Virus record (IMG/VR): IMGVR_UViG_3300037493_001163
Location: 1-20,423 of that record
Source: a virus
DNA length: 20,423 nt
Direction: 5' to 3' (one strand)
In this document: positions 3,401 to 8,000 of the stretch, piece after piece
Numbering within the stretch: position 1 is the first letter of the stretch
Layout of the letters: every line of letters begins with the position of its first letter
The notes under the pieces: model-generated
What the model was told of the DNA's origin: nothing
Database searches by the model: none
What the model saw: the letters and a program-made list of their open reading frames with translations, nothing else
Made by a program: the position numbers and the translations under genes

Positions 3401-5743
3401 CCAGATGATATACCACCTAGTACATATGATATGTATATTGGTAATAGTTCATATGGTTGGTCTAATGGTTATTGGAGTGCTATTGCAAATACTCCAGTTC
3501 CTGGAGCTATTACATCAGTAAGAGGAAGTAATTTAAATTGCGGTATACATCTACCACATGACTTATTTCCTGGAGATATAATTAGATTTTGTGGTTCTAG
3601 TTATTTAAATCCTCAAGAAGTAGTGCCGCCAATACCACCTTTATCGGTTACACTTGTACAAACTAATTGTGAAAATTTATGTACTATTAGTTTTAGAAAC
3701 CTAGCTGTTTCACCAGTTATTCCAACTGAGACTTTTTATTATTCATGTCAAGATAGAGGTGAATATTATCTTTGTTTTTCTATTGAACATATTGTAACTC
3801 AAACATATAAAGCTTGTGATACAATATTTTTTGCTGGATTTGGTTGGGATAGTTCTGCTGTTCCTGATGGATATTTAGCTCCTAAAGTAACATTTACACT
3901 AAACACAGAAAGAAACTGTGCAGAAGTAGATACAACACCAAACATGGAGTTACAACTTTGTTGTGATCCAGCAGTAGTTGAAGTAGTATTTAATACTGCA
4001 TTAACTGTTGGAGATTTCTTTGTAGATAATGAAGGCAACTGTTGGGAAGCTCAAGCTAAAACAGCAGCTGCAGTTACAAGTACAAGAACAGTAACTACAT
4101 CATATATTTCTTGTTCAGCTTGTGTAACAGCAAATCCTTGTCCTGCAAACTTACTAGTGCAATCTTGTTGTGAAGGTGGTCCTGAAACATTTACTGGTTC
4201 ACTTCCTACAATTGCAGTTGGAGATACATTTGTTGATACATATGGCTTCTGTTGGACAGCTACTCAAGAAACAACAAGTCCAACTACAGGTACAGTTTAT
4301 GTAGATACTAATTTAGGTAATGTAGGTTGTGAAATATGTACAAGTGATAATCCATGTCCACAAATAATTGAACTTGTACCATGTTGTAAGAATGCATCTT
4401 ATCATCCAATACTTACAACACCAGCCCTATTAGGTTATACACCAAGTAATGGAGAAATAATTGTTGATACATTTGGTATTTGCTATAGAGTTATATTTAC
4501 TCCAACTGGAAATGTTACAGCACCATTTATTACATACTTTGATACTTATGGAGTAGGTGATTTTTGTGCAACATGCACAACTGATAACCCATGTCCTGAT
4601 ATATACCATACAGTAATTAATTGTTGTACTGGTGATACAGAAGTTATTCTTCTTAATGGAATTTCTTCACCAGATACAATATTAAGTATTACTATAACAA
4701 CTTCTCCTTTTGTGCCACAATGTTGGAAAGTTGTAAGTTATAGTAATACTGGTACAGCTACTATTACTATAGATACTTTTAATGGAATATATGAGATTTG
4801 TCAAAAATGTATAGAGGATCTTAAAGACAAATGTCCTACTTATTATAAAGTAGCAGATTGTTGTGGTGTACTTACAGATGAAACAATGTTACTTCCATTT
4901 AATGATATATACTACTCAAGTCTAATATATACTGATACTGCTAATAATTGTTGGTACATTTTAGGTGCTCAACCTTTAGGTCCAGATACTATTGCTTGGA
5001 ATGGTAGTACATCTATGACATGTGTAGACTGCAATAACACTAATTTAAATTGTACTTTAGTAGTAATAAAGGCATGTTGTTTTGACATAGAAGGTTCTAC
5101 ATCATTAGAATCTTTAGGTGGTGGAGTTGCTATAGGGGATACATTTGTTGATCAATTTGGTTTATGTTGGTATGTTGTTTTTGGAACACCACCTGGTTAT
5201 GATTACGGATCATTAGGATTTATTAATGTAGTATCAATTGTTGCAGTAGGAGAAGATGTATGTGCGGGTTGTATAGGAGAAAATCCTTGTCCAGCAGGTT
5301 TATATTATCAAGTTCAAAACTGCTGTACTGAAGAAATTAGAACTGTATATAACACGGTTGGACTTATTGTGGGTATAACTTATTCATGGTTTACATCATT
5401 AGATTCATTTAAACCTGATTGTTGGAAAGTAATTAGTTTTACTCTTACAGGAACAGCTACAATGAATATACTTAGTACCGTAGCACAACATAAGATTTGC
5501 CTTGATTGTATTAAGTATATTGATGGAATGTGTCATGATTATTACATTGCTGTTTCATGTTGTGGTTTACCAAATGAGGTAGTATACATACCAACTTTTA
5601 TTCATAATAATGGTTCTGCATTTACAGATACTTCTGGTAACTGTTATAGTACTTTAGCACCTACAGTTGGACCTGCTACAATAACTTGGAGTGGTGATGA
5701 GTATCCAAATTGTGGACCATGTATAATTGATCATCCTTGTTAA
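458..5743 (+). CDS. Giant collagen-like tail fibre with C1q-like domain and Cys-rich C-terminal repeats
   Basis: This 1761-aa protein is almost certainly a trimeric fibre on the virion, probably used for host or surface binding. Domains in order: residues 1-86, a Pro/Cys-containing N-terminal domain ending in a Gly hinge, likely the attachment part; 87-374, uninterrupted Gly-X-Y repeats; about 376-530, a beta-rich domain resembling C1q/TNF jelly rolls (GTYAFNFSVQL, WLKKNGTSV, VVAGDYYEIAW); 531-919, a second Gly-X-Y rod with two short interruptions (near GFTGIGIQG and GIEGLGTQG); about 920-1167, a linker and beta-rich domain; 1168-1761, eight Cys-rich repeats. The rods are unusual: Gln and Thr dominate, with only about five Pro and hardly any charge. 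The ATG at 458 lies 6 bases after the previous stop. Collagen fold and trimerisation are inferred from the strict Gly periodicity. Confidence 0.92.
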   Translation: MIPNKPSLFDSNAVDNCTPGLTTPPPCGPGVPCDDPEVCAEQFDAQCIIYTGNDLICQGTTVIAQDTTVAQGLANIIDWVCGGGAVGSQGVQGIQGLTGAQGTDGIQGLTGAQGQIGVTGSQGAIGSTGAQGIAGPQGTVGAVGSQGAIGSQGVQGTTGPQGTTGNDGSQGITGIQGIQGIQGIIGITGAQGIQGITGIQGTTGIQGSIGTQGSTGAQGTVGAQGSQGTQGLLGTQGATGNTGSQGSTGSTGSQGAIGTQGSTGITGSQGIQGIQGIIGNTGSQGSTGTTGSQGAVGIQGLKGDTGSQGTTGSTGTQGATGIQGSTGATGSQGIQGTQGLIGSQGLTGLQGTQGIQGLLGLQGVQGIQGVAGAGGVVALYGSWYSTVDQSASVINTETLMTANTISYANGVSLVAGTQVTYSTAGTYAFNFSVQLHYTGGGGSGNVVDVWLKKNGTSVPDSNTKYLVPTNLAYNVSSLDFLFTVVAGDYYEIAWATNNLNIILEYDAAAAPHPTTPSVIINTFQVTYTQLGPQGPTGLQGATGTQGLTGIQGIQGIQGLQGIIGLQGIQGLQGTLGTTGAQGTTGSTGSQGAVGIQGITGLTGSQGSIGSTGAQGSTGAQGTTGTTGSTGSQGTQGIQGILGNTGSQGTTGTTGSQGSTGAQGTTGSQGSTGLTGSQGVQGITGNTGATGSQGATGTTGSTGAQGAEGSQGLTGFQGTTGTTGSTGSQGTQGIIGLQGTTGATGSQGAVGTTGSQGSVGTQGTTGTTGSQGSTGSTGAQGSVGSQGAIGATGSQGSTGLQGTQGILGTQGSTGATGGTGAQGVQGITGIQGETGTTGGTGSQGATGSQGLTGIQGTQGFTGIGIQGFQGMQGPQGIQGITGGVGSQGSQGIQGFFGLQGTQGIEGLGTQGVQGVQGASGGGGAIAILEEGTTVVATATAINFIGTCITATDAGGGQANITLDCTGGGCLIDNSHIGAAGLAPDDIPPSTYDMYIGNSSYGWSNGYWSAIANTPVPGAITSVRGSNLNCGIHLPHDLFPGDIIRFCGSSYLNPQEVVPPIPPLSVTLVQTNCENLCTISFRNLAVSPVIPTETFYYSCQDRGEYYLCFSIEHIVTQTYKACDTIFFAGFGWDSSAVPDGYLAPKVTFTLNTERNCAEVDTTPNMELQLCCDPAVVEVVFNTALTVGDFFVDNEGNCWEAQAKTAAAVTSTRTVTTSYISCSACVTANPCPANLLVQSCCEGGPETFTGSLPTIAVGDTFVDTYGFCWTATQETTSPTTGTVYVDTNLGNVGCEICTSDNPCPQIIELVPCCKNASYHPILTTPALLGYTPSNGEIIVDTFGICYRVIFTPTGNVTAPFITYFDTYGVGDFCATCTTDNPCPDIYHTVINCCTGDTEVILLNGISSPDTILSITITTSPFVPQCWKVVSYSNTGTATITIDTFNGIYEICQKCIEDLKDKCPTYYKVADCCGVLTDETMLLPFNDIYYSSLIYTDTANNCWYILGAQPLGPDTIAWNGSTSMTCVDCNNTNLNCTLVVIKACCFDIEGSTSLESLGGGVAIGDTFVDQFGLCWYVVFGTPPGYDYGSLGFINVVSIVAVGEDVCAGCIGENPCPAGLYYQVQNCCTEEIRTVYNTVGLIVGITYSWFTSLDSFKPDCWKVISFTLTGTATMNILSTVAQHKICLDCIKYIDGMCHDYYIAVSCCGLPNEVVYIPTFIHNNGSAFTDTSGNCYSTLAPTVGPATITWSGDEYPNCGPCIIDHPC
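716..1579 (+). repeat. Collagen-like Gly-X-Y coding repeat, first rod
   Basis: Every third codon is Gly from residue 87 to about 374 of the fibre, roughly 96 triplets with no break. Most triplets are Gly-x-Gln or Gly-x-Thr. At the DNA level this appears as degenerate 9-base units such as CAAGGTATT and ACAGGAAGT, noticeably more GC-rich than flanking DNA. Codons vary freely between copies, so the repeat is kept at the protein level and is not a recent DNA expansion. Confidence 0.95.
2048..3217 (+). repeat. Collagen-like Gly-X-Y coding repeat, second rod
   Basis: Gly-X-Y periodicity resumes at residue 531 directly after the C1q-like domain and runs to about 919, roughly 129 triplets. There are two frame-preserving breaks in the triplet register (an extra Gly-Ile and an extra Gly-Leu) near its C-terminal end. 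Such interruptions often act as kinks in collagen. Composition matches the first rod: Gln, Thr, Ser and Ile rich, with very few Pro. Confidence 0.95.
3959..5743 (+). repeat. Eight tandem Cys-rich protein repeats at the fibre C-terminus
   Basis: A unit of about 70-80 aa repeats eight times. It follows the pattern Cys-Cys, then about 15-25 residues, an optional GDTFVDxxG, then Cys-Trp/Tyr, then Cys-x-x-Cys, then a terminal NPCP-like Cys. The Cys-Cys pairs begin at residues 1168, 1237, 1309, 1389, 1468, 1540, 1622 and 1701, and the protein ends exactly at the last Cys of unit 8. Units 4 and 7 share P-x-C-W-K-V, and units 5 and 8 share Cys-Cys-Gly and T-D-T-x-x-N-C. The offsets 3 to 6, 4 to 7 and 5 to 8 are 231, 233 and 233 residues. 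Confidence 0.85.
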
Positions 5744-5783: not shown

Positions 5784-8000
5784 ATGAATAATTTGTGTCA
5801 ACTGGCATTAGCCAACGGAGGATCTGTTAACTATCTTATACTTCCTGCAAATATCACAGAAGGATTAGGATTAACTAACCCTTCTGTCTTCTATCAAGAT
5901 GGAGTATACTTACTTAATCTAAGACATGTTCAATATGCTTTATACCACAGTGAGGGAGAACAAAGATTCCAAACTCCATGGGGACCATTAGCATATCTTA
6001 ACCCAGAAGATGATGTAACTCTAAGAACAACTAACTACTTGTGTCAGTTAGATCCTAATACACTTGCTATTGAGCAATATAAGAAAGTAGATACATCTAA
6101 GTTAGATGTAACCCCTGTGTGGGAGTTTATTGGGCTAGAAGATGCTAGAGTAGTAGACTGGAAAAATAAGTTATATCTTACAGGTGTGCGCAGGGATACT
6201 AAAGCAGATGGTGAAGGTAGAATGGAATTATCTACTATTGATACTGGAAGTAAAGAAACAGAAAGATATAGAATAGAACCTCCTACCCATTCCTATTGTG
6301 AAAAGAACTGGATGCCTATTCTTGATATGCCCTTTCACTATGTTAAGTGGACTAATCCTACAGAGGTTGTAAAAGTTGATCCCAAAACGGGAACATCTAA
6401 AACTTTATATATCATAGAACAAGATGTTACTTTCCCAAGAGATATTAGAGGAGGATCACAAGTTATTACTGTAGGTAATCATAGAATTGCACTTACACAT
6501 GAAGTAGACTTATGGAAGAATGAGCAAGGAAAGAAAGATGCTCAATACTATCATAGGTTTATTATCTGGGATATGGAGTGGAACATAGTTGCACACTCTG
6601 ATGCATTTAAGTTTATGACTGCAAATATTGAGTTCTCCTGCGGTTTAGCATATGATGGTAAAGACTTTATCATTCCGTTTGGTTTTCAGGACTCTACGGC
6701 CTTTATTTTAAGGCTTCCAGAAACTGTATTTAATCATATGTGCAGTCTACCACAAAATGATGTTAAACAAAATACTAAAGGAGTTACCCCAGCTAAATTA
6801 GAAAAGTTCATTATAAATCCATTCTGTGGGTCATGTAATTTAGATTTAGCAGTGTATTACTTTGAGAATGGACATTATGCATCATCTATGTCATTTGCAT
6901 TAAGAGCTGCAGAGTTTTCTAAGAATGATGATTATGTATATGAGTCATTATTATTAGTAGCCAGATCTTTATCAAAACTTGGTAGAAGAAGAGTTACTGA
7001 AAAAGGTCTATGGTTAAATGCTGTGACCTTTGCTCCAGAAAGACCAGAAGCATACTTGTTCTTGAGTGAATATGCAGAAGCAACTCAACAATATCATGAA
7101 GGATATTCTTATGCAATAATGGGTCTTAAGAATGCAGCAAATGCAAAAGAAATAACTTCTAATATAGGATATGAAGGTGCTTATCAATTACAATTCCAAC
7201 AAGCAGTAACAGCTTGGTGGATTGGTAGATCTAAAGAAGCTAGAGATGAGTTTATTAAATTAGTAAACCAAGGTCCTACATTAAGTGAAAGATACCAAAA
7301 AATGGTACAATCTAATATTACATCTTTAGGTTCTGGACCAGATCCATTCTTAAGATATCACAAAGGATTCTATGATCAACTAAGATATAAGTTTCCAGGA
7401 GCAGAAACTATTGAGAAAAACTTCTCTCAAACATACCAAGACATGTTTACTTTATCCATGTTAGATGGTAAAAGAAATGGAACATACTTTGAAATTGGTG
7501 CAGCAGATCCATTCCATGGAAGTAATACAGCTCTCTTAGAGCAATTTGGATGGACAGGTACCTCATTAGAGATCTTACCACATGAAGTTGAAAAGTTTAA
7601 ACAACACAGAAAGAATGAAGTTATTCTATGTGATGCTACAAAATTTGATTACTCTGTACTTAGAGGTCACATTGACTACTTACAGGTTGACTGTGAACCA
7701 CCCTCAACTACCTATGAGATCCTTACAATGTTACCTTGGGATCAATGCTCTTTTGGGGTAATTACATATGAGCATGATTATTATACAGATGTATCAAGAT
7801 CCTTTAGGGAAAAGTCTAGAAACTTCTTATTAAGTAAAGGGTACTTGTTAGTAGCAAGTAATATTGCACCAAATGAGACAAGCTGTTATGAAGACTGGTA
7901 TGTACATCCAAAACATGTAGACAAAAAGATAATTAAACAGATGTTAGCTGCAGATAATACAATTAAAAATGCAGAGAAATATATGTTTGGAAAGTTGTAA
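5784..8000 (+). CDS. Three-part protein: GH130-like beta-propeller, TPR-like region, FkbM-family methyltransferase
   Basis: The protein is 738 aa. Residues 1 to about 310 resemble the five-bladed propeller of GH130-like sugar-active enzymes: NPSVFYQDGVYLLNLRHVQY from residue 32, GLEDARV at 117-123, EKNWMP at 173-178, and EFSCGLAYDGKDFIIPFG near 282. Residues about 345-500 are helical with TPR-like spacing. Residues about 555-738 look like an FkbM-type SAM-dependent methyltransferase: FEIGAADP with Glu570 and Asp575 as motif I, and Glu596 in GTSLEILP as the likely ribose-binding acid. FkbM enzymes methylate sugars and other small hydroxylated groups. The neighbouring fibre and the sugar-type propeller suggest that it builds or modifies a glycan on the virion. 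No signal peptide is seen, so it is cytoplasmic or packaged. Catalysis by the propeller is not established. Confidence 0.8.
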   Translation: MNNLCQLALANGGSVNYLILPANITEGLGLTNPSVFYQDGVYLLNLRHVQYALYHSEGEQRFQTPWGPLAYLNPEDDVTLRTTNYLCQLDPNTLAIEQYKKVDTSKLDVTPVWEFIGLEDARVVDWKNKLYLTGVRRDTKADGEGRMELSTIDTGSKETERYRIEPPTHSYCEKNWMPILDMPFHYVKWTNPTEVVKVDPKTGTSKTLYIIEQDVTFPRDIRGGSQVITVGNHRIALTHEVDLWKNEQGKKDAQYYHRFIIWDMEWNIVAHSDAFKFMTANIEFSCGLAYDGKDFIIPFGFQDSTAFILRLPETVFNHMCSLPQNDVKQNTKGVTPAKLEKFIINPFCGSCNLDLAVYYFENGHYASSMSFALRAAEFSKNDDYVYESLLLVARSLSKLGRRRVTEKGLWLNAVTFAPERPEAYLFLSEYAEATQQYHEGYSYAIMGLKNAANAKEITSNIGYEGAYQLQFQQAVTAWWIGRSKEARDEFIKLVNQGPTLSERYQKMVQSNITSLGSGPDPFLRYHKGFYDQLRYKFPGAETIEKNFSQTYQDMFTLSMLDGKRNGTYFEIGAADPFHGSNTALLEQFGWTGTSLEILPHEVEKFKQHRKNEVILCDATKFDYSVLRGHIDYLQVDCEPPSTTYEILTMLPWDQCSFGVITYEHDYYTDVSRSFREKSRNFLLSKGYLLVASNIAPNETSCYEDWYVHPKHVDKKIIKQMLAADNTIKNAEKYMFGKL

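Follow-up and report, generated by a model that had tools for sequence, protein, structure and literature searches.

A predicted propeller, TPR and FkbM-like methyltransferase fusion in a crAss-like phage, encoded next to the gene of a collagen-like fibre

The fusion gene and its neighbourhood

The window, that is, the whole 20,423-nt stretch of viral DNA analysed here, belongs to a crAss-like phage (Crassvirales). Genes for a major capsid protein, a terminase and a portal are all present; the capsid protein matched the Crassvirus major capsid protein in a Pfam search (PF23898, E = 8.7e-31), and the terminase and portal matched packaging families of PHROGs. As shown in Table 1, the window encodes P0001, a fusion protein whose gene starts 40 bp past the stop of a collagen-like gene, and no terminator-like site was found between the two on the plus strand. 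A preliminary description of this DNA had read a GH130-like propeller, TPR-like helices and an FkbM methyltransferase on one chain, placed right after a Thr-rich fibre. Both the arrangement and the location were borne out, since the fibre gene lies immediately upstream and a single ORF holds every motif quoted then (NPSVFYQDG at residues 32-40, GLEDARV at 117-123, EKNWMP at 173-178, FEIGAADP at 569-576, and GTSLEIL at 592-598). Downstream of the fusion gene are a small ORF, lipoprotein-like on reading, and then weak matches to a holin and a CHAP domain (ORF list and Pfam). Among the genes of the window, none was recognised as an initiating glycosyltransferase.

Table 1. Features of the window and the evidence for each
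Feature	Position	Strand	Evidence
Small tail-region ORF, 85 aa	194..451	+	Upstream of fibre; context only
Collagen-like fibre gene, 1761 aa	458..5743	+	ORF; Pfam Collagen E 4e-94 (inflated, as the sequence is repetitive); triplet counts
Fusion protein P0001, 738 aa (propeller, TPR and FkbM-like methyltransferase)	5784..8000	+	ORF, alignment, AlphaFold2 model
GH130/GT108-type propeller, residues 1-320	5784..6743	+	Structure Z, hhalign E 1e-6, residue mapping, invariance
TPR helices, residues about 338-515	6795..7328	+	Designed TPR E 4e-13; TPR families in homologues; structure
FkbM-like SAM methyltransferase, residues about 545-738	7416..8000	+	PF05050 matches in homologues, SAM methyltransferase folds

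Chance cannot account for the ORF of P0001, since relatives are encoded by at least 596 stretches in IMG/VR. An alignment of 26 full-length fusions was made (alignment A1), in which the 25 relatives are 42-84% identical to P0001. In one contig (L001:1852-4068) the ORF is interrupted and appears as two pieces, of 598 and 90 aa. The N-terminal motif MS(V/I)GNL.DYGNKG of the small ORF upstream of the fibre recurs in tail-slot proteins of differing lengths in the crAss-like relatives L124, L187, L132, and L174.

Domains of P0001

Sequence searches with P0001 itself were unproductive, yielding no match in Pfam or NCBIfam and no usable match in the PDB; structure and profile-profile comparison were therefore needed, and the domain calls rest on these and on homologues. 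AlphaFold2 models were obtained for the whole protein (pLDDT 85) and for residues 339-738 (pLDDT 88.7), and these predicted structures support the three-domain architecture. Thus, the domain searches and structure prediction that had been proposed earlier recovered propeller, TPR and methyltransferase folds from models and homologues.

Residues 1-325 of the model matched GH130 mannoside phosphorylases with VIA Z scores of 18.5-22.3 over 260-280 residues and adopt the five-bladed propeller fold of GH130 (PF04041). The preliminary description had staked its reading on a beta-propeller in the N-terminal third, and this match supplies one. The GT108 enzymes of Leishmania (MPT-1/2), compared by structure only, scored below the GH130 entries (Z of about 16-17). 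Profile-profile comparison with a GH130 alignment gave an hhalign E value of 1e-6. P0001 itself did not match at the PF04041 cut-off in Pfam, but 7 of 25 aligned homologues matched the family at E values up to 0.1 (best, 1.3e-4); the propeller profile retrieved zero relatives by sequence from the PDB.

In the computed alignment, N32, R47, E119, D120, and D303 align with GH130 site residues whose roles were taken from PMC4599007 and PMC4264767, and the mannose-site triad N32/D120/D303 corresponds to N28/D92/D281 of Teth514_1788 (PMC4264767). H239 aligns with a conserved His of the phosphorylases, at a position where the hydrolase BT3780 has Asn. All six residues are invariant in the 26 fusions of A1 and in 25 propellers (alignment A2). 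Phosphorylases have three basic residues that contact phosphate; of the candidates in P0001, H239 aligns with the conserved His, whereas K188 and R222 are invariant but automatic alignment failed for both. It also failed for the EKNW and RGGS motifs, which have no clear GH130 counterpart, so equating K174 with the beta-1,2 specificity Lys described in PMC4599007 would be a guess from motifs, and we do not claim it. For the paired catalytic Glu residues of BT3780 (PMC4599007), a clear counterpart was not found in P0001, the alignment being ambiguous in that part.

Because the site residues, including the phosphorylase-type H239, align and are invariant, a phosphorylase or transferase is favoured for the propeller, and a hydrolase appears less likely. 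The earlier label of a GH130-like propeller therefore holds for the fold and for the aligned site residues, but it is to be read as membership of the GH130/GT108 clan, with a predicted activity that is probably that of a glycosyltransferase or phosphorylase. Two other roles were weighed for this domain. In one, the propeller would be a mannoside phosphorylase or mannosidase that degrades glycans for metabolism while the methyltransferase acts elsewhere. That the phosphorylases are the closest folds and share H239 agrees with such a role, but synthesis agrees better with the fusion to TPR and methyltransferase domains and with the proximity to structural genes. The Asn of BT3780 at the position of H239 speaks against a hydrolase, as do its paired Glu residues to the extent that the ambiguous alignment allows, and we regard glycan breakdown as improbable. 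In the other, the propeller would be non-catalytic, serving in carbohydrate binding or as a structural part, and the methyltransferase would modify protein side chains or other substrates. Large sequence divergence, the lack of a Pfam match in P0001, and the unmatched EKNW and RGGS motifs are what a loss of catalysis might leave behind; relatives of 42-84% identity nevertheless all keep the catalytic Asp and the residues in contact with mannose, which makes this role improbable too.

The middle of P0001 is made of TPR-like helices, as had been described: in addition to the designed-TPR match and the TPR families detected in homologues, the model of residues 339-738 gave structural matches with Z of about 15-17 for this region, and the best of these include the TPRs of SPINDLY and of O-GlcNAc transferase (OGT). 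OGT and SPINDLY are TPR enzymes that glycosylate proteins.

The C-terminal domain contains the motifs FEIGAADP, GTSLEIL, LQVDCEPP, EHD, and YEDW, and Foldseek matched it to METTL6 and other SAM methyltransferases (E of about 3e-5). No match to PF05050 was found in P0001 itself by Pfam; among aligned split homologues, 8 of 21 matched the family at E values up to 0.1 (best, 4.7e-5), and the homologue in Synechococcus phage DSL-LC02 matched above the cut-off (2.8e-10). The FkbM methyltransferase with a SAM site proposed in the preliminary description is thus supported by the fold and by homologues, though not by a Pfam match of P0001.

Linkage to collagen-like genes and occurrence as split genes

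In the fibre, 224 G-X-Y triplets were counted in long runs. Position Y is occupied by Gln (108) or Thr (77), and at position X there is Ser (57), Ile (43), or Thr (39); Pro is rare and Lys about zero. Since the triplets are almost free of Pro and Lys, hydroxylation of the animal type is unlikely to provide the anchor for a glycan, and Lys chemistry of the kind used by Mimivirus L230 is likewise unlikely in these repeats. Judged from composition, O-glycosylation of Thr would be the natural candidate. The C-terminal part of the fibre (window positions 4002-5470) contains Cys-rich repeats that have diverged, with a spacing of 210-231 bases (70-77 residues) between some of them.

Co-occurrence of the fusion with collagen-like fibres, a check suggested at the outset, was found in the crAss-like group: a long G-X-Y gene lies upstream at all 19 loci whose left flank reaches 2.9 kb or more, at a distance of 32-47 bp in 11 of them. 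Collagen-like runs within 5 kb were present at 17/19 crAss-like loci and 7/31 loci with other backbones versus 0/38 NrdB control loci; for the other backbones versus the control, P was 0.0024, a value uncorrected for relatedness and obtained with a control not matched for tail genes. Fusion-free relatives were collected by their terminase (18 records), and the search was extended to whole records, as the start of a fusion may be as far as 10 kb ahead of TerL. Only two passed the collagen cut-off, with one short match each, and in those inspected no G-X-Y gene was seen in the fetched upstream flank; as most of these records are fragments, the comparison of the slot is imperfect. One fusion-free relative (L113:1429-3082) has sulfotransferase, APS-kinase-type, and nucleotidyltransferase-type genes upstream of its terminase region and a short collagen match further upstream, and this gene set is possibly an alternative fibre-modification cassette.

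In a tree of propellers, full fusions fall almost entirely into one group (44 rows, support 98/92), L041 lying outside on a long branch. In other phages, including the cyanophages S-SCSM2R and DSL-LC02, the propeller and TPR-FkbM parts are encoded separately, by genes that adjoin or overlap, and this arrangement suggests that the two work together; the DSL-LC02 pair is placed between collagen-like and tail fibre genes. The TPR-FkbM protein of this cyanophage (L083:15968-18121) additionally has radical-SAM and SPASM domains. Other joinings were also found, in which the propeller is combined with GT25 or FkbM and the TPR domain with WavE, so that the swap partners are glycan enzymes or methyltransferases, and at one locus the next gene encodes FkbM plus GT2. 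At marine loci, a cluster of 15 neighbour ORFs represents a next gene coding for a CTP-transferase-like and mannose-6-phosphate-isomerase-type protein, and a mannose-type sugar fits this isomerase-type domain. This gene abuts or overlaps the split unit in L043, L045, L046, and the L051-L063 group (e.g., L060:7815-8606). A 2OG-Fe(II) oxygenase (PF13640, E = 1.5e-14) belongs to another cluster, in which six of the seven ORFs are immediate neighbours of the split unit (L072, L073, and L075-L079; e.g., L077:2299-2883). Giant viruses also gave structural matches, and some of the matched proteins bear the names of fucosyl-, pyruvyl-, or GT2-type transferases. A scan of 84,980 species genomes returned 9 bacterial matches, each in a record whose title gives it as a MAG or bin, so this one scan does not support a bacterial origin. 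A phmmer search with an Actinomycetia phage homologue as the query found nothing.

The main rival to a role on the fibre is that P0001 acts during infection on glycans of the host surface, either lipopolysaccharide or capsule, e.g., to block adsorption of competing phages, its place in the fibre region reflecting a clustering of host-interaction genes. Glycosyltransferases in the host-recognition region of pelagiphages have been proposed as host-surface modifiers (PMC7029224), partners such as WavE, which belongs to lipopolysaccharide synthesis, and GT25 do occur, and many split forms have no collagen-like gene within 5-10 kb. Because of the latter, a collagen-like protein encoded nearby cannot be the substrate in every case. 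Nevertheless, the tight spacing and co-occurrence with a collagen-like fibre inside one crAss-like group, a TPR architecture resembling that of enzymes acting on proteins, and the fact that neither a signal peptide nor a membrane segment is apparent in P0001 (sequence read by eye) argue against it, and we consider a host-surface role unlikely.

Proposed function and comparison with known systems

Taken together, these results incline us, by a little, to the view that P0001 is a phage enzyme that decorates its own collagen-like fibre with a methyl-capped sugar. The argument draws on the fold (Z of about 22 against mannoside phosphorylases, compared with about 17 against the GDP-Man-dependent MPT-1/2), the OGT and SPINDLY matches of the TPRs, the conserved triad and H239, and the adjacency of the split parts. 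It further draws on the linkage to the fibre gene, the nature of the swap partners, the mannose-6-phosphate-isomerase-type neighbour at marine loci, the Thr-rich, Pro- and Lys-poor repeats, and the giant-virus matches joined to domains named as sugar transferases. We infer the following order of steps: the TPR domain would grip the fibre polypeptide or position both catalytic domains beside it, the propeller would transfer a mannose-type sugar from a nucleotide sugar, e.g., GDP-mannose, or from mannose-1-phosphate to the Thr/Ser-rich repeats or to a sugar already attached, and the FkbM-like domain would afterwards O-methylate the glycan as a cap. Counted against fibre decoration are the collagen-less split forms, the failure to recognise an initiating glycosyltransferase in the window, the unaligned EKNW and RGGS motifs, and shared inheritance, which may account for part of the linkage because tail-region genes travel together. 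By linkage, co-occurrence and fibre composition, the virion-glycosylation or sugar-capping unit suggested in the preliminary description is the better supported of the two predicted functions named there, the other being surface modification in the host.

More broadly and more tentatively, aquatic phages, the crAss-like ones among them, may have collagen-like fibres that are glycoproteins, whose Thr-rich repeats would receive methyl-capped mannose-type glycans from a propeller-TPR-methyltransferase unit by a route that needs no hydroxylation of Lys or Pro. Sugar enzymes encoded by phages are often taken as host-surface modifiers. The unit described here goes with one particular type of fibre. 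Its presence in hundreds of aquatic viral contigs, and that of relatives in the sequenced cyanophage DSL-LC02, makes glycosylation and methylation of phage collagen-like fibres directly testable. If true, the proposal would extend the GH130/GT108 propeller to the modification of protein fibres and might account for the stabilisation or shielding of viral collagens that are poor in Pro and rich in Thr. The three-domain fusion was not described in the literature searched, coverage of which was incomplete; virus-encoded glycan modification as such is known, and the domain parts of DSL-LC02 are already annotated separately.

The GH130 mannoside phosphorylases (BfMGP, UhgbMP, and Teth514_1788/1789) share with P0001 the propeller fold, the Asn/Asp/Asp mannose triad and the conserved His, but identity is only 10-18%, P0001 falls below the family cut-off, and its propeller is fused to TPR and methyltransferase domains in a phage fibre region. 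The Leishmania MPTs of GT108, mannosyltransferase-phosphorylases that the propeller resembles in structure though less closely than GH130 entries, are a precedent for transferase activity on a fold of this kind (PMC8950772), but the listed solved chains lack TPR and methyltransferase domains. FkbM methyltransferases (PF05050) resemble the C-terminal domain in motifs and fold and through the significant Pfam matches of aligned homologues, if not of P0001 itself. OGT and SPINDLY likewise join TPRs to a transferase; their catalytic domain is GT-B, whereas in P0001 a methyltransferase-like domain follows the TPRs and a propeller is also present. The split genes of DSL-LC02, annotated as 'beta-mannosyltransferase' and 'FkbM family methyltransferase', are homologous to the parts of P0001 and also lie in a fibre region, but they are two genes, the second with further domains. 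Finally, Mimivirus L230, a collagen lysyl hydroxylase/glucosyltransferase, offers a precedent for a virus-encoded fused enzyme acting on a viral collagen-like protein (PMC9614988); it differs from P0001 in its domains and acts via Lys, which the fibre repeats of the window almost lack.
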